Shown one piece after another: positions 9,072 through 26,972 of a stretch of DNA of 27,165 nucleotides. Made by a program: the position numbers and the translations under genes. Origin of the DNA: a virus; IMG/VR virus record IMGVR_UViG_3300045950_000104, positions 1-27,165 of that record; one strand, 5' to 3'. The notes under the pieces were generated by a model. That model ran no database searches and was not told the origin of the DNA. It saw only the letters and a program-made list of their open reading frames with translations. The stretch's first letter is position 1, and every line of letters starts with the position of its first letter.

Positions 9072-9443
9072 TTAGCCCTGGATTCGGCCGGGCGCGATCA
9101 GCGCGACGAAGATGTCGCCGGAGGCTGCATTCACGAGCGCCCGCCCGATCACGTTGTTGTTGACACCCGCCGCAGGCGCCGCGGCGACGGCCTTGCCGTT
9201 CGCGTCCGTGGTCAGCCAGTCGCCCCGGGTGATCGCGCCGCCCGCCTCGATCTCGGCGATACCGGCGTGGATGATGTCGGCGCGCTCGTTGATTGCGGCG
9301 GCCACCTCGTTAGTGACGCCGATCAGCGCGTCGCCGACGGCGGCGGCGAGCACCACTTGGTTGTCGGCGGTGCCAGGCTTGACGATGCGGTAGGCGGCGA
9401 GCGCCGCCTCGGCCTTGTAGTTCTTGGTGAGGATGGGGTTCAC
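9072..9443 (-). CDS. Capsid cement/decoration protein (DUF2190-like, 123 aa)
   Basis: Translation starts at GTG 9443, overlapping the protease stop (GTGA), with GGAGGT five bases upstream. The protein is rich in small residues and beta-strand patterns (VVLAAAVGDALIGVTNEVAA, GDWLTTDANGKAVAAAPAAG, NVIGRALVNAASGDIFVALIAPG), which matches DUF2190-type capsid cement proteins that bind on the outer surface of heads and stabilise them. Its position between protease-scaffold and major capsid is the usual one. No catalytic function is expected. Confidence 0.83.
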   Translation of the reverse strand: MNPILTKNYKAEAALAAYRIVKPGTADNQVVLAAAVGDALIGVTNEVAAAINERADIIHAGIAEIEAGGAITRGDWLTTDANGKAVAAAPAAGVNNNVIGRALVNAASGDIFVALIAPGRIQG

Positions 9444-9934
9444 TGGCTACCTCCGGTGACATGTTTGACGGCCTGCGAGACAGAGACGACGCGGCCAGCT
9501 TTGCGCTCGGCCTCCTTGAATTCGACCGCGGCTTTCGCGATCGCCTCGGCGCCCTCCGGCGCGGCCGCGCCGTCGGGCCGCGCGCGCTCCTGAAAGTCCA
9601 CGACCTTCGGCTGCGCCTTGAGGTACTCGCGCAGCCACTCCGCGGCGGGCTTCTTCACCGCCTTGTCGCCCTCGCCGAACTCGACCGTGCCCTCCGAGGG
9701 CAGCGACGCCATGAAGGCGACCAACCCCTCGCGGTGCGCGGGGAGCACGCGTCCTTCCTTCACCTGTTCATCGACGAACGCGCCGCAGGCGGCGAGATTG
9801 CGCGCGCGCGCGGCCGCGGCCTCCTCGGCCTTGAGCCGCTTCTCGCGCTCGGCGAACTCGGCGCGCTCGCGCTCGAGCTTTTCCTGGTCGGCTTTCAGCT
9901 GCGCCTGGCGGCGATCGAGTTCTTGCTTGTCCAC
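9440..9934 (-). CDS. Nested in-frame scaffold protein (Mu Z-like, 164 aa)
   Basis: Inside the protease gene, in the same frame, GTG 9934 (VDKQELDRRQ) is preceded by AAGGAG with eight bases of spacing. Translation from it would give the coiled-coil C-terminal part alone. In phage Mu, and in lambda C/Nu3, the scaffold is made in this way from an internal start of the protease gene. The internal start falls at the beginning of the coiled coil. The ribosome site is seen in the sequence; actual use of it is inferred from Mu. Confidence 0.7.
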   Translation of the reverse strand: MDKQELDRRQAQLKADQEKLERERAEFAEREKRLKAEEAAAARARNLAACGAFVDEQVKEGRVLPAHREGLVAFMASLPSEGTVEFGEGDKAVKKPAAEWLREYLKAQPKVVDFQERARPDGAAAPEGAEAIAKAAVEFKEAERKAGRVVSVSQAVKHVTGGSQ

Positions 9935-10549
9935 GTCGTCGGCTCCTTGGGAGTGTTCCGAGTAGGAGGGCGCGGGCTCGTCTTTCTGCGCCGCGCTCAC
10001 CTGGAGGTTTTCGATCTCGTACTCTGGAATGACCGCGTCGGCCTTTTCCTGGCCGGCCTGGTCGATGATCCAGTTCTTGATGCGCCGGAAGAGCCCGGCG
10101 ATCGTCATGCCCGTCCAGTCGGTGAACTCGACGACGCCTTGGCCCGCATCGGCAAAGGACGCGGCCTTCAGACCGCGCACGGCGGGCGGCTGCGCGCCGA
10201 GAAAACCGATGTGCCGCAGGTAGAGCGCGCCCGGTTTCGGGTTCTCCGGCGCGTCCGGCAAATAGAACGAGGCGCTCACCTTCTTGAAGCGCCCGGCCTG
10301 CACCATCTCGGCGAACTGCGGCTCGACCTGGTGCGGCTCCGCGTTGAGCGTGCTGCCGCCGAAGTCGAGGGACTTCACCCAGCCGTAGGCGGGCTCGTTG
10401 TCCTTCGGGTGCCCGATCACGATCGGCGCCTCGTGCAGCGCCGGATCGTAGGCGGCGGCGCAGGCCGCGAGCTGCTCCGGCGTGAACGTGAGAGAGCGGC
10501 CGTCCTTCGCGGTATGCCGGCCGGGCTTGAAGATCTCCAGGCGCTTCAC
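9440..10549 (-). CDS. Head maturation protease with C-terminal scaffold region (Mu I-like, 369 aa)
   Basis: The start is GTG 10549 (VKRLEIFKPGRHT), which agrees with family N-termini; a longer upstream frame would run through the promoter block. Residues 1-150 match Mu gpI-type proteases (FKPGRHTAKDGRSLTFT, APIVIGHPKDNEPAYGWV, YLRHIGFLGAQPPAVRGL). A linker follows, then from about residue 206 a strongly charged coiled coil (KQELDRRQAQLKADQEKLER) and a C-terminal tail that act as the scaffold region. The protease is expected to cleave the scaffold and perhaps the capsid N-terminus during head maturation. No clear Shine-Dalgarno site precedes the GTG, which is close to the putative late promoter. 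Confidence 0.88.
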   Translation of the reverse strand: MKRLEIFKPGRHTAKDGRSLTFTPEQLAACAAAYDPALHEAPIVIGHPKDNEPAYGWVKSLDFGGSTLNAEPHQVEPQFAEMVQAGRFKKVSASFYLPDAPENPKPGALYLRHIGFLGAQPPAVRGLKAASFADAGQGVVEFTDWTGMTIAGLFRRIKNWIIDQAGQEKADAVIPEYEIENLQVSAAQKDEPAPSYSEHSQGADDVDKQELDRRQAQLKADQEKLERERAEFAEREKRLKAEEAAAARARNLAACGAFVDEQVKEGRVLPAHREGLVAFMASLPSEGTVEFGEGDKAVKKPAAEWLREYLKAQPKVVDFQERARPDGAAAPEGAEAIAKAAVEFKEAERKAGRVVSVSQAVKHVTGGSQ

Positions 10550-10551
10550 GG

Positions 10552-10612
10552 CGCGCGAGCCTAGCCGCGCCCCGAGTGCAAGTCCGCTAACCTGTGTGCT
10601 AGAAGTTGCGCA
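10552..10612 (-). promoter_or_regulatory. Putative late promoter block, head operon (PI-like)
   Basis: Minus-strand region ahead of the protease gene. Its core (10579-10612) is identical at 26 of 34 positions to 20243-20276 upstream of the lysis operon, including TTCTAGCAC and GCGGACTTG. The similarity continues towards the gene through GGCG and CTAG blocks. A TAGGCT hexamer (10563-10558) could be a -10 box, placing the transcript start at or next to the GTG. There is no TTGACA-like -35, as expected for a Mor/C-activated promoter. Confidence 0.65.
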
Positions 10613-10659: not shown

Positions 10660-10989
10660 ATGCGCAGCGCCGCCGCTCTGCTCTTCGCCCTAGCCTGGTT
10701 GCCCGGGATCGCCAGCGCGCAGGAAAGGTGCCGCGCGATCGACGGCGACACGATCCGCTGTGGTAAGGAGCGGGTCAGGCTGCAAGGAATCTACGCACCC
10801 GAGCTGCGCGAGCCCGGCGGCCGCGAGGCGCGCGAGCGGCTGCAACGGCGGCTGGAATCAGGCGAGGTGCGAATCGAGCGCCGTGCCCGCGACCGCTACG
10901 GCCGCACCGTCGGCGATGTCTACGTCGGCGGCGCGAGGATCACGCAGCGCGACGTCGGCCGCCGCGGCGGAAAGGGCGCGCGGCGCTAG
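10660..10989 (+). CDS. Secreted thermonuclease-like (SNase family) nuclease (109 aa)
   Basis: This plus-strand gene runs against the surrounding operon. The protein has a clear signal peptide (MRSAAALLFALAWLPGIASA, probable cleavage before QE). IDGDTIR (27-33), VRLQGIYAPEL (39-49) and DRYGRTVGDVYV (78-89) match staphylococcal-nuclease-like domains; R40, E48 and R82 align with catalytic R35, E43 and R87 of SNase by motif. At 109 residues it is a short member of the family. It would cleave DNA or RNA in the periplasm or outside the cell. An AGGA lies eight bases before the ATG. It lies head-to-head with the late head promoter and tail-to-tail with the G-like gene, like an accessory cargo gene. 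Confidence 0.85.
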   Translation: MRSAAALLFALAWLPGIASAQERCRAIDGDTIRCGKERVRLQGIYAPELREPGGREARERLQRRLESGEVRIERRARDRYGRTVGDVYVGGARITQRDVGRRGGKGARR

Positions 10990-11018: not shown

Positions 11019-11495
11019 TCACCCGCCGCTCCGTGCCGCCCGGTCGATCGCCTCGACAATCGCGCCGATCGCGTCTTCGGCCCACTCCTCCGGCGGCTGC
11101 ACGTACTCGCTGATCGGAAAGAACGGTCGCGCGGGGATGCGGACATTGCGCGCGCGGCCCGCGCGGAAGGTGCCGAACTGATGCACCGCCGCGATCGAGC
11201 CGCCGTCCGGAAGCTGCCCGTAGTTCGTCCCGACCTCGAGCATGTCGCCCTCGACGCGGTAGTCGATCGAGTTCATCAGGTGCCCGGTGTCGCGCAGCGG
11301 CTGCCCGATGCGGTACTTGAGCGGCTCCCAGGGTTCGCCCCACGGGTCGGTGCTCGTCTGGAACGATAGCTGCACCTTCGTCTTCCACTGCCGGCCGATC
11401 TCCTCGAGCACCGGCCCCTGGTCCTCGCCCAGGGCGGCCAGGTGCTCGAGCGCCCGCAGGAGCCCGCTGTCGTAGAACTCGACCGGATCGCTCAT
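11019..11495 (-). CDS. Phage virion morphogenesis protein (Mu G-like, 158 aa)
   Basis: The protein has the hallmarks of the Mu gpG/P2 gpS virion morphogenesis family: VLEEIGRQWKTKVQLSFQTSTDPWGEPWEPL, then LRDTGHLMNSIDYRV, then AAVHQFGTFRAG and PARPFFPISE. Such proteins are needed for joining heads and tails or for tail completion. In Mu, G follows F, and here the same order holds with a small zinc-ribbon gene between. ATG 11495 is preceded by a 113-base non-coding stretch. The C-terminal helix (AIGAIVEAIDRAARSG) is typical. Confidence 0.88.
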   Translation of the reverse strand: MSDPVEFYDSGLLRALEHLAALGEDQGPVLEEIGRQWKTKVQLSFQTSTDPWGEPWEPLKYRIGQPLRDTGHLMNSIDYRVEGDMLEVGTNYGQLPDGGSIAAVHQFGTFRAGRARNVRIPARPFFPISEYVQPPEEWAEDAIGAIVEAIDRAARSGG

Positions 11496-11608
11496 GAGGG
11501 TGCTATGCTAGCGGGCAGCGGGTGACGACCGGAAATTTCGGCGTCCGGGCGCGTGGTCCCGGCAACGGGGCGATGCATGGAGGGACAGCCGGCCTCCCAC
11601 CCGCTTCA

Positions 11609-19157: not shown

Positions 19158-19781
19158 TCAGCGCGCCCTCGCTTCGATCCGCCAGCGCGCGCCGCCCGGG
19201 CGCGCACCCGCGCGACGCATCACTTGGTCGTAGAGGCCGCTCGTGTCGGCGAGGAAAAGCTCCGCCGCGTCCACGCTCGCGAGCGCGAGCGAGCCGTTGC
19301 GGATCTGCTCGGCGAGCAGACCAGGAGCCCAGCCCACCAGGCCCATGTAGTAGCGCGCCTCGTTCGGCGTCGTCTCGATGATGCGGTCAATCGCGGCCTC
19401 GGTGCCGACGAGCCAGACGCCGGGCATCAGCTCGAGCGAGCCTTGCGCCGGCACCGGCGCGACGCGCGCGATCGCAAACAGTACGTCGCGCGAAGCGGCG
19501 CCGCCCCAGTACACCTGGTCGCGCACCTCGCGAGACGGCACGTGCTCCGGGAAGAGCATGGCGAGCCGGATCTGCATCGGGCGGTTGAGCACGACGCCGA
19601 CGTGCCCGCCGCGCGGCAGCGGCGCGACCACCATGACGGCGCGCTGATAGAGCCGGCCGTCGAGCTTCGGCGTGGCGGCAACGAACACCGCGCCCGCGTC
19701 GATATCGGGCGCGGCGGGCTGCTGAGCGATCGAGGGCACGATGACGAAAAGGAGCAGCGCGCAGGCGAAGGCGCGTCTCAT
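19158..19781 (-). CDS. Exported YqgE/AlgH-like (DUF179) protein in the lysis cassette (207 aa)
   Basis: ATG 19781 overlaps the DUF5675 stop (ATGA). An N-terminal signal peptide (MRRAFACALLLFVIVPSIAQ) leads into a DUF179-like domain: TPKLDGRLYQRAVMVVAPL, GGHVGVVLNRP (58-68), VYWGG (90-94), and YYMGLVGWAPGLLAEQIRNG (144-163), which is the conserved GWxPGxLxxE pattern. Bacterial YqgE/AlgH proteins are cytoplasmic and poorly understood; the exported version here is unusual. In this position phages normally carry endolysin, spanin or regulators, so a periplasmic lysis role is possible. The family match is by motif; the function is unknown. Confidence 0.8.
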   Translation of the reverse strand: MRRAFACALLLFVIVPSIAQQPAAPDIDAGAVFVAATPKLDGRLYQRAVMVVAPLPRGGHVGVVLNRPMQIRLAMLFPEHVPSREVRDQVYWGGAASRDVLFAIARVAPVPAQGSLELMPGVWLVGTEAAIDRIIETTPNEARYYMGLVGWAPGLLAEQIRNGSLALASVDAAELFLADTSGLYDQVMRRAGARPGGARWRIEARAR

Positions 19782-20212
19782 GAGGACCTCCGGGTGAACG
19801 CCTCGATGATGTCGAGGCGGAATTCGTCCACATGCCGCAGGAGCGAGAGGAACTCGTCGAACCCCTGCTGGCTCGCGGTAATGCCTGGCCTGCCGAGCAC
19901 AGGGTTGAAGGACTCGCCGACCAGGATGCAGCCGTGCGTATCGTCTTCGAGGTTGCCGCGGTGGAACAGGATCTCGGAGCGGCCGGGCACATCCATCACC
20001 TGGAAGGTGTCGCCAAAGCGCGGGCTGTCCTTGTAGCCGTAGTCCGGCGAGCGCCGGCAGCGCAGCGCGCGGTATGCGCCCGCCGGAATGCAGGACTCAC
20101 CACGCCGGTTATCGCGCCAGGGGCGCTCGAGCGTGACCGCGAACGGCGTGCCTCCGTGAATCAGCACGCCGTAGGTGGCGATTCCGTTGTTGGCGACTCG
20201 GACGAGGACCAT
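19778..20212 (-). CDS. DUF5675 protein, possible peptidoglycan-acting lysis enzyme (144 aa)
   Basis: This is the first gene behind the putative lysis promoter. The sequence GVLIHGGTPFAVTLERPWRDNRR, GESCIPAGAYRALRC, then VMDVPGRSEILFHRGNLEDDTHGCILVG matches DUF5675. The conserved H (FHRGN) and C (HGCILVG) recall the L,D-transpeptidase arrangement, which suggests a cell wall target; I know of no firm biochemical proof. It lacks a signal peptide and could be released by the holin. ATG 20212 has no clear ribosome site and lies close to the putative transcript start. It is coupled by ATGA to the AlgH-like gene. Confidence 0.8.
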   Translation of the reverse strand: MVLVRVANNGIATYGVLIHGGTPFAVTLERPWRDNRRGESCIPAGAYRALRCRRSPDYGYKDSPRFGDTFQVMDVPGRSEILFHRGNLEDDTHGCILVGESFNPVLGRPGITASQQGFDEFLSLLRHVDEFRLDIIEAFTRRSS

Positions 20213-20214
20213 CG

Positions 20215-20276
20215 CCCGGCGAGACTAGGCGCGCCTCGCGCCCAAGTCCGCAAACGCAGGTGCTAGAAAATGCGCT
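20215..20276 (-). promoter_or_regulatory. Putative late promoter block, lysis operon (Plys-like)
   Basis: The non-coding stretch between the Mor-like gene and the DUF5675 gene. Its core (20243-20276) shares 26 of 34 bases with 10579-10612, and the shared pattern continues as GGCGCG and CTAG blocks towards the start codon. The distance from core to start codon is 30 bases here and 29 at the other copy. TAGTCT (20227-20222) may be the -10 box. In Mu, late promoters require the activator C; here the Mor-like protein encoded directly upstream is the natural candidate. Confidence 0.68.
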
Positions 20277-20281
20277 GGCTT

Positions 20282-20605
20282 CTAGGCGTCCGGGGCGTCG
20301 CGCGCGGCCACGATGATGCGCTTCAGGGTCGAGAGCGAGATCCCGTACTCCCGGCACAGTTCGACGGCATTCAAGCCGTTGAACCTGGCGACGATCGCCT
20401 TGTTGCGCTCGATGAGCTGGGCCTGGCTCATCATCGGCACGTAGAGGTACTGCCCGCCCCAGTCGAGCCGCAGCTGCGCGACGCACGCATCGGCGACCTC
20501 GGCCGCGACGCCGGCGTCGATCCGGCGCTCGAGGAGCTGGGTCTCGACGATGCTGCGGAGCGATTCGAGCAGCTCGGGGTACTTGGGCCTGGATGGGGCG
20601 TTCAT
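20282..20605 (-). CDS. mor: Mor/C-family transcription activator (107 aa)
   Basis: Starting at ATG 20605, the protein has the Mor/C layout: an N-terminal helical dimerisation part (YPELLESLRSIVETQLLERR, ADACVAQLRLDWGGQYLYVP) and a helix-turn-helix (NKAIVARFNGLNAVELCREYG, then ISLSTLKRIIVAARD). The WGGQYLYVP motif is diagnostic of the family, which in Mu activates middle (Mor) and late (C) genes. Its place at the end of the early block and just before the lysis promoter argues that it switches on late transcription. Its start overlaps the stop of an 11-codon mini frame. Only one Mor/C protein is seen in this window. Confidence 0.9.
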   Translation of the reverse strand: MNAPSRPKYPELLESLRSIVETQLLERRIDAGVAAEVADACVAQLRLDWGGQYLYVPMMSQAQLIERNKAIVARFNGLNAVELCREYGISLSTLKRIIVAARDAPDA

Positions 20606-20637
20606 GGCATAGGCGGAACAACGTGATCGCAGGGCAT
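20602..20637 (-). CDS. Eleven-codon leader frame before mor
   Basis: ATG 20637 overlaps the upstream stop (TGATG), and the frame MPCDHVVPPMP ends in TGA that overlaps the mor ATG (ATGA). A ribosome ending the 43-codon gene could restart here and then again at mor. The peptide itself probably has no function; the arrangement may tune activator translation. It could also be chance. Confidence 0.35.
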   Translation of the reverse strand: MPCDHVVPPMP

Positions 20638-20768
20638 CAGCGCTCCTCTCGCCTCGTGGCGACGCCAAAGCCCACGACGAGGCCCGTGAGCACGTAGATA
20701 GCGGAGTTGATGTCCCAAGCGGCCAAGCCGATGAAATAAATGACGAAGAAGACAAGGAAGAGCTTCAT
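20637..20768 (-). CDS. Small single-span membrane protein (43 aa)
   Basis: A frame missed by size cut-offs: ATG 20768 overlaps the gemA stop by ATGA and TGA lies at 20637. The 43 residues begin MKLFLVFFVIYFIGLAAW and are largely hydrophobic (LFLVFFVIYFIGLAAW, AIYVLTGLVVGFGVA) ending RREER, so one or two membrane helices. Small membrane proteins next to gemA-like genes are common in Mu relatives. Role unknown. Tight coupling supports real expression. Confidence 0.72.
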   Translation of the reverse strand: MKLFLVFFVIYFIGLAAWDINSAIYVLTGLVVGFGVATRREER

Positions 20769-21891: not shown

Positions 21892-22482
21892 TCAGCCTCC
21901 TTTGTATTCGCGGACTCGCTGCCGCGCGAGATACAGCTCGAGCGGCGTGGTGTAGGCGATCCTCCCGGGGTGTCGCGGATAGCCGTCGGCGGTCGTGCCG
22001 AGGCACCGCGGGACGATGCCCGCCTGCCGCAGCCAGGCGAGCGCGACGAGATCCTGGTCGAGAAGCCCGCCGTGCGCTCCCCAGGCGCAGACGACGGGAC
22101 CACCCGAGTCATGCGCCGCGTGCGCCGCGCGCACGAAGTAGTCGCGGTTCTTCTGGTCGAGGAGCTGCTCGGGCGCCTTGTAGAGCGCGAGCGGGTCGGT
22201 CGAGATCCAGGGGAACAGGTTCACGACGAGAAGCCATCCGCAGCCCCAGATCTGCGCGAAGCCGATGCAGCGTGCGACGGTGTTGTCGTTGTGCACCGCG
22301 TCCGCGACCGAGGGGTTGAGCATCGCGAAGCAAGCAATCCGATTCCCGGAGCCGACGTGCCGGCAGAGGAGATAGCGGCGCTTGCCGCAGGCCGAGAACA
22401 CCGCGCCCGGCTCCATGCCCGGCGCCGCGCAGTTGACGTGCCGCGTCCGCTCGGCGTCGGCGGGGAAGAGGTCGAGAGTCAT
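21892..22482 (-). CDS. DUF1643 family protein (196 aa)
   Basis: ATG 22482 (MTLDLFPADAERTRH) was chosen because it overlaps the previous stop (ATGA). The DUF1643 core is clear: RYLLCRHVG, FAMLNPSVADAVHNDNTVARCIGFA (52-76), VVNLFPWISTDPLAL (86-100), and VVCAWGAHG. DUF1643 proteins occur in phages and bacteria; their biochemical role is not established. The N-terminal 17 residues are nearly duplicated in the 33-codon frame upstream (22802-22903), and this is part of a 48-bp repeat. Confidence 0.87.
   Translation of the reverse strand: MTLDLFPADAERTRHVNCAAPGMEPGAVFSACGKRRYLLCRHVGSGNRIACFAMLNPSVADAVHNDNTVARCIGFAQIWGCGWLLVVNLFPWISTDPLALYKAPEQLLDQKNRDYFVRAAHAAHDSGGPVVCAWGAHGGLLDQDLVALAWLRQAGIVPRCLGTTADGYPRHPGRIAYTTPLELYLARQRVREYKGG
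22427..22474. repeat. 48-bp direct repeat, copy A (in DUF1643 start)
   Basis: Identical to 22848-22895 at 45 of 48 bases, same orientation, about 420 bases apart. The copy encodes residues of the DUF1643 N-terminus (DLFPADAERTRHVNC). The three differences are a D/E change and two silent third-position changes in the shared frame. Confidence 0.92.
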
Positions 22483-22805: not shown

Positions 22806-22903
22806 GACGCTCCCCTCCCTTCCAGCTCCGACAGCCGCCGCTCGACAGCGCAATTGACGTGCCGCGTGCGCTCGGCCTCGGCGGGGAAGAGGTCGGGGCT
22901 CAC
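22802..22903 (-). CDS. 33-codon frame with duplicated DUF1643 N-terminal peptide
   Basis: From GTG 22903 the frame VSPDLFPAEAERTRHVNCAV... ends at TGA 22802, overlapping the next GTG. It repeats the DUF1643 N-terminal peptide almost exactly and then differs (VERRLSELEGRGAS). A weak GGAG lies ten bases upstream. It could be a true small protein, a leader, or a remnant of a broken DUF1643-like gene. The plus-strand gene begins only 36 bases away, facing the other way. Confidence 0.45.
   Translation of the reverse strand: MSPDLFPAEAERTRHVNCAVERRLSELEGRGAS
22848..22895. repeat. 48-bp direct repeat, copy B
   Basis: Matches 22427-22474 at 45 of 48 bases. It lies in the 33-codon frame, next to the start of the plus-strand gene at 22940. 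Confidence 0.92.
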
Positions 22904-26549: not shown

Positions 26550-26972
26550 CTGCTTCTCCTTTCTCGGCACCTCGCGACCAGGTGCGTGATCGCCGGCGTT
26601 ACCGCGACTCGTCACGTTGTCGCCCGGCGTGCCGGTCCTCGCGGACGCGGCCACCTGGCCGGAGGTGAGTTCGGCCTTCGGCGGTCCCCATTCGCGCAGC
26701 CGCTCCTTGACTGGGTCCGGGCTCGGGCCGTGCTTCGTCGGCACGTATTCGCTGAGCTTCCCGCCGGCGGCGAGCGAGAGCCGGTATTCCGTGGTGCGGC
26801 CCTCCGGAGTTTCGACGGAGCAGGCGAGAAGGCGGCCCGCCTCGACCGCAGGGCGCAGCAACGTCTCCACGTTCACGGGCGTGCAATCGAACGCCTCGGC
26901 GATGGCGGGCGAGCGCAGCGCCCGGCGCTTGCCGATCAGCGCGATCGCCCGCTCGAGGAAGTCCTGGCTCAC
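26106..26972 (-). CDS. Two-domain winged-helix early protein (288 aa)
   Basis: GTG 26972 overlaps the previous stop (GTGA). The N-terminal domain (FLERAIALIGKRRALRSPAIAEAFDCTPVNVETLLRPAVEAGRL) and the middle domain (TDKILAAYKAHGPMTARECAKYVKCGWLSIATSQLAARGRLVRLG) each read as a winged helix of the type found in phage early regulators. They are joined by a disordered linker. A basic segment (GGKRMRRRKQIRAREL) and a C-terminal helix (LSRDELRTLAEFLRRVDR) follow. DNA binding is likely; target unknown. Confidence 0.8.
   Translation of the reverse strand: MSQDFLERAIALIGKRRALRSPAIAEAFDCTPVNVETLLRPAVEAGRLLACSVETPEGRTTEYRLSLAAGGKLSEYVPTKHGPSPDPVKERLREWGPPKAELTSGQVAASARTGTPGDNVTSRGNAGDHAPGREVPRKEKQMSTTDKILAAYKAHGPMTARECAKYVKCGWLSIATSQLAARGRLVRLGGGAHSTIYGLPGQKAGAKAAQKASRGGKRMRRRKQIRARELPAMQFASAPPAVNGFRPAIAADRSLLLIGQAQAGELSRDELRTLAEFLRRVDRTGVRA

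Follow-up and report, generated by a model that had tools for sequence, protein, structure and literature searches.

A probable pair of activator-dependent late promoters, with first-gene mRNAs predicted to be essentially leaderless, in a Mu-like siphophage

Two matching non-coding blocks in the window (the whole stretch of DNA analysed here, a complete IMG/VR record with a length of 27,165 bases) are best read as two late promoters of the sigma70 type that belong to a Mu-like siphophage. In the proposed mechanism, a Mor/C-family activator would be produced at the end of the early operon, its dimer would bind at about -51 to -36, and host RNA polymerase would thereby be able to initiate at promoters that carry a -10 only (TAGTCT and TAGGCT). 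These promoters would drive a DUF5675-AlgH-like-holin operon and a protease/scaffold/capsid operon. Transcription is predicted to start 2-3 nt before the start codon in the window and on the start codon in many relatives, and the first gene of each operon would be translated from an essentially leaderless mRNA. We consider this mechanism, taken as a whole, very probable on comparative grounds. An earlier note on this DNA had already suggested late promoters, and that suggestion gains support from the pairs found in relatives, the Mor/C spacing, the Mor-family gene and the gene sets shared with Mu.

The earlier note had described two minus-strand stretches that match at 26 of 34 positions. Both were found, with TTCTAGCAC-N8-GCGGACTTG exact at 20268-20243 and 10604-10579, and the 30- and 29-base distances given to the start codons (ATG, 20212-20210; GTG, 10549-10547) are correct. 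The "further matching blocks" mentioned beside them are also real and follow the first blocks in perfect register without a gap, such that copies A and B constitute one ungapped 57-bp block with 44/57 identical positions (Table 1) and a full kept pattern of TTCTAGCAC-N8-GCGGACTTG-N14-CTAGnCTCGC. The original observation is confirmed, and it is larger than described. The 26/34 identity exists, but by itself it is unremarkable and not significant, as 3-9 such pairs occur per random Markov-1 genome of equal composition; significance comes from length, register and position. In 20 Markov-1 random genomes, the best 57-bp pair reached 37-40/57 in each, against 44/57 in the window. No further window site matched TTCTAGCAC-N8-GCGGACTTG with up to three mismatches (shuffles averaged 0.01 matches), and a profile built from the two copies, which scored 64.8 and 63.8, revealed no third copy in the window, the next site scoring 7.2. 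The strongest same-strand repeat of the window, and the sole 57-bp pair to beat copies A and B, is a coding repeat at 22425-22481 and 22846-22902 (minus strand; 50/57 identical; LFPADAERTRHVNCA) in two neighbouring early ORFs.

Table 1. Positions of the shared block, its proposed elements and the adjoining genes in the window.
Feature	Position	Strand	Evidence or remark
Shared 57-bp block, copy A (lysis side), proposed late promoter	20219..20275	-	44/57 vs 10555-10611
Shared 57-bp block, copy B (side of the head protease), proposed late promoter	10555..10611	-	44/57 vs 20219-20275
TTCTAGCAC-N8-GCGGACTTG, copy A, proposed Mor-like activator region, about -53 to -28	20243..20268	-	exact match
TTCTAGCAC-N8-GCGGACTTG, copy B	10579..10604	-	exact match
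Proposed activator dyad -51..-36, CTAGC-N6-GTTTG (weak, 3/5 pairs)	20251..20266	-	sequence and Mu Pm position
Proposed activator dyad -51..-36, CTAGC-N6-GTTAG (4/5 pairs)	10587..10602	-	sequence and Mu Pm position
-10-like hexamer TAGTCT, copy A	20222..20227	-	predicted +1 20215, leader ~3 nt
-10-like hexamer TAGGCT, copy B	10558..10563	-	predicted +1 10551, leader ~2 nt
Mor/C-family activator gene	20282..20755 (start codon provisional)	-	PF08765 E 3.3e-18
DUF5675 gene, first in lysis-side operon	19778..20212	-	PF18925 E 8e-24
Head maturation protease (Mu I-like), GTG start	9440..10549	-	homologues 50% identical, residues 3-342

The stop codon of the Mor-family gene and the ATG of the DUF5675 gene (20212) are separated by a 69-base gap, and copy A occupies most of it. 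The earlier note was right to place a Mor-like gene directly upstream of one copy (PF08765, E 3e-18), since the gene ends at 20282, six bases ahead of the block. Matches to its product in the PDB by phmmer were Mu Mor (1rr7) and Mu C (9l0x, 9vw8), and a search of genome contigs with the same protein returned two distant matches, one in a Planctomycetota bin and one in a Fusobacteriales bin. The lysis-side operon continues from DUF5675 to an AlgH-like gene and then a three-helix holin; the AlgH-like gene (DUF179) was located at 19158-19781 (-). Copy B lies upstream of the GTG of the protease gene (10549), whose homologues include the proteases of B3, RcapMu and KS10, and its other side is bounded by a divergent SNase gene. 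The latter (10660-10989, plus strand; PF00565, E 5.6e-9) has a signal-peptide-like start. It lies between the genes for the Mu G-like protein and the protease, which read from the other strand, and looks like a cargo (moron) gene. The gene sets behind the two copies are those of Mu Plys and PI, as had been claimed (PMC4461284).

A feature that the earlier note missed is that each promoter reaches its start codon, leaving nearly no space for a leader or a Shine-Dalgarno sequence. The -10-like hexamers are separated from the start codons by 9 nt (TAGTCT) and 8 nt (TAGGCT), compared with 6-7 nt in relatives, and the +1 positions of Table 1 were placed by the relatives' ruler described below. Both copies read CGGACT at -35 to -30, a 3/6 match that is no consensus -35. 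On the lysis side, the TAG within the -10 hexamer is an in-frame stop codon, so an upstream start of the DUF5675 gene is ruled out, and at neither window site did we find an alternative ATG, GTG or TTG downstream of the block and ahead of where the conserved protein begins. Pairing with the anti-Shine-Dalgarno sequence is weak at the two starts (-2.5 and -3.8 kcal/mol), which have no Shine-Dalgarno sequence; genes of the window that bear one reach about -6 kcal/mol or lower, and several other window genes are also weak. A leaderless start in the window, with a predicted leader of 2-3 nt, is probable. The region of TTCTAGCAC-N8-GCGGACTTG was positioned from the -10 and the relatives, and both proposed dyads fall inside the conserved block. 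A plain dyad scan of the window showed no strong palindrome at the expected centre, where the palindrome score was unremarkable and the half-site pairs were not above background. Since the symmetry is weak (3/5 and 4/5), the placement of the dyads is taken over from relatives. Elsewhere in the window, at 11495-11520 (-), the Mu G-like gene has TAGCAT 9 nt ahead of its ATG and no Shine-Dalgarno sequence, and this may possibly be a further near-leaderless promoter; neither the shared block nor a dyad at the right distance was found there.

The exact motif occurred in no IMG/VR contig, and the related loci compared at that stage contained nothing closer than 4 mismatches; matches with 4-5 mismatches in these loci resembled chance and were set aside. 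Since the exact motif is absent from relatives, the comparison was moved to pairs within the same genome. The earlier note had named the block's absence from close relatives as a refuting outcome; its sequence is indeed absent from them, but its architecture is conserved at the same two places. For each related record, the region upstream of the protease gene was compared with the rest of the record, and many of the phages had their best match in another short gap, mostly just past the Mor gene or before the lysis genes. Such matches were 24/24 in G001, 22/23 in G002, 39/52 in G013, 35/47 in G015, 50/73 in G003, 27/30 in YPCBV-1, 25/29 in Bhz63, 24/28 in SHP3, 48/60 in G022 (with a third copy at 44/56) and 44/51 in RcapMu, where the match includes a terminator-like hairpin. 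This RcapMu hairpin (CCCCCGGACCTGTGTCCGGGGGTTTTG; L144) is identical in both copies, at 11475-11525 directly past the Mor-like gene and upstream of 19968 before the protease gene. In phage B3 (L143), three copies of TTTTCG-N6-CGAAAA, at 11565, at 26817 and upstream of the protease gene at 19857, precede the holin region, the tape measure gene and the protease gene, and are likely late-activator sites. Third block copies before other genes were also seen at 11613-11668 in L126 (G022), at 10000-10064 in L132 (G007) and on the minus strand at 10529-10549 in L119 (G018); these would mark extra late operons.

We also performed a formal pair test, in which the 200 bp after the Mor gene were compared with the 180 bp before the protease gene, against a null of ~190 random segment pairs per record. 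The window, G022, RcapMu, G001, YPCBV-1, G002 and G028 scored above every random pair, and L162 and G012 had one exceedance each. No post-Mor/pre-protease match was detected by this test in L153, L164, G017, G010 or B3, and the test is not applicable to the many relatives where the Mor gene directly precedes the protease gene. Mu, used as a positive control, scored 10.5 with a null maximum of 14.0, so the known Mu match would fail this test alone. The results indicate that phage-specific pairs connect the post-Mor and pre-protease places in Mu-like phages, including RcapMu and YPCBV-1.

The position of promoter elements was measured across relatives in a sample chosen against hand-picking, namely 55 non-redundant genes for the protease together with 12 sets of other genes from the same loci as controls. 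The pattern nAnnnT was present exactly 6-7 nt before the candidate start in 38/55 protease genes (7.3 expected). Among controls, it was found at this distance in 2/39 MuF, 2/47 gp36, 0/9 gpG, 1/13 GemA and 1/11 DUF2190 genes, the remaining control sets comprising one to three loci each. Portal genes of the relatives showed some excess, with 7/19 cases versus 2.2 expected. In the 41 protease promoters with the hexamer, palindromy peaked exactly 31 bp upstream of nAnnnT (z 6.9), with a mean of 4.51/8 at this offset versus an average of 2.04 over 49 offsets. When 33 hand-picked promoters were anchored on the start codon, palindromy peaked at centres 43 and 44 nt upstream, because the palindrome lies 31 bp upstream of the -10. 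The Mor dyad of Mu Pm extends from -51 to -36, centred at -43.5 (PMC4287176). With a -10 that begins at -12 and a dyad 31 bp upstream of it, the centre falls at -43.5 and +1, which follows the hexamer after six more bases, falls on the start codon. The spacing of the putative -10 and dyad in relatives is that of Mor/C promoters. Since dyad and -10 agree, the relatives' late mRNAs should begin on or beside the first codon, and that they are leaderless is a strong prediction. Among the closest Mor relatives, L103, L105, L005 and L150 all have nAnnnT 6-7 nt before an ATG shortly past the Mor stop codon; in the first three, TTCCCCA- or TTCCTCA-type blocks lie a few bases from that stop and are followed by CAACAT or TAGCAT, 6-7 nt ahead of the ATG. 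L003 and L004 have no gap after the Mor gene, and L008 and YPCBV-1 have clear leaders with ribosome sites, their upstream regions ending in ...GGGAGGCCGCNATG.

Among 30 related records, PF08765 matched once in 26, twice in one and not at all in three; a single activator is therefore likely in most relatives. Across 37 phages, similarity of the dyad region correlated with Mor similarity (r 0.65), and the partial Mantel correlation between site and Mor, given the protease, was 0.36 (0/2000 permutations). The site-protease correlation given Mor was 0.22 (p 0.006), so common descent contributes and shared ancestry is not fully removed. Site divergence follows Mor divergence beyond protease divergence.

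The promoters that C activates in Mu are Plys, PI, PP and Pmom; a 10-bp match is common to Plys and PI (PMC4461284). Our own comparison within Mu gave TCCCGCACCT as the best stretch in common, with 10 exact bases that lie 60 nt upstream of the lys start and 52 nt upstream of the I start; both starts are preceded by Shine-Dalgarno-like sequences. The window resembles this system in the two gene sets served (lysis and I protease/head), in its non-consensus -35, in the position of a Mor/C-family activator gene immediately ahead of the lysis promoter and in a sequence element common to the promoters of one phage (44/57 in the window). However, the window match spans 57 bp and that of Mu 10 bp, the window -10 lies so close to the start codon (8-9 nt) that a Shine-Dalgarno sequence has no room, and most relatives have one Mor/C gene per record whereas Mu uses Mor and then C. 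With Mu Pm, the window shares the -10 hexamer and the lack of a -35; the Pm dyad at -51 to -36, centred at -43.5 (PMC4287176), has a clear equivalent across the 41 relatives, whereas its putative counterpart in the window is weak. Mor of Mu serves the middle promoter, and C the late promoters (PMC4287176), whereas here we propose that the Mor-like protein would act directly on the late operons. The window promoters thus appear Mu-like in logic and positions, but are predicted to be practically without a leader. In leaderless mRNAs of bacteria and phages, e.g., lambda cI, the start codon is at or beside +1 and there is no ribosome site; those known from phages encode mainly regulators, whereas the mRNAs considered here, with predicted start points, are of lysis and head operons. 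Searches of the open literature for work on late promoters, and on leaderless late mRNA, of Mu-like phages gave no directly relevant paper.

Other explanations were considered. The blocks could be activator-dependent late promoters in which the CTAG hexamer is not the -10, with starts further downstream or +1 further upstream, and with ordinary leaders. The gaps of 8-9 nt in the window, against 6-7 nt in relatives, would suit this alternative, as would the clear leaders and ribosome sites (...GGGAGGCCGCNATG) of L008 and YPCBV-1. We judge it unlikely, considering that the window offers no other ATG, GTG or TTG between block and conserved protein start, that the lysis gene meets an in-frame stop in the TAG of the hexamer, that the block ends only 29-30 nt from the start codons, and that the relatives' ruler places the elements otherwise. 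It is much less probable still that the blocks are operators through which a repressor or another phage regulator silences late genes. Repeated operator-like sites before two operons would appear similar, and no repressor gene was identified in the record; yet in relatives the dyad takes the position of Mor activator sites, ahead of a -10 lacking a good -35, site divergence follows Mor, and Mor adjoins a site in many relatives.

The match could also have arisen by recent duplication or mobile insertion and have no regulatory role, for example together with the SNase cargo gene that stands beside copy B (10660-10989, other strand). However, copy A has no cargo gene, conservation ends at the start codons, and equivalent pairs with other sequences occupy the same two places in relatives, so that this origin seems very improbable. 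Chance similarity of GC-rich DNA would suffice for 26/34, which arises 3-9 times per random genome, but not for 44/57 where the random maximum is 37-40, nor for two copies that both sit in short gaps just before start codons; we give it almost no credence. Activator-dependent late promoters with essentially leaderless mRNAs remain our preferred explanation.

More broadly, it is fairly likely that a large group of Mu-like phages begins late transcription exactly on the first codon of the leading lysis or head gene, with leaderless lysis and capsid mRNAs, under one fast-evolving Mor-type activator whose target sites differ widely. The Mu C/Mor late-promoter scheme, known from a single coliphage, would thereby be widened to a broad range of transposable phages. 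The ruler sets the dyad 31 bp upstream of the -10 and the -10 6-7 nt before the start codon, and would let both late promoters and the sites of their activators be read from sequence alone. The pairings of each Mor protein with its site would be a natural set for studying the co-divergence of activators and their targets. Should the start points be confirmed, operons essential for the virion and for lysis would be translated without leaders late in infection, which would bear on how ribosomes select leaderless mRNA.
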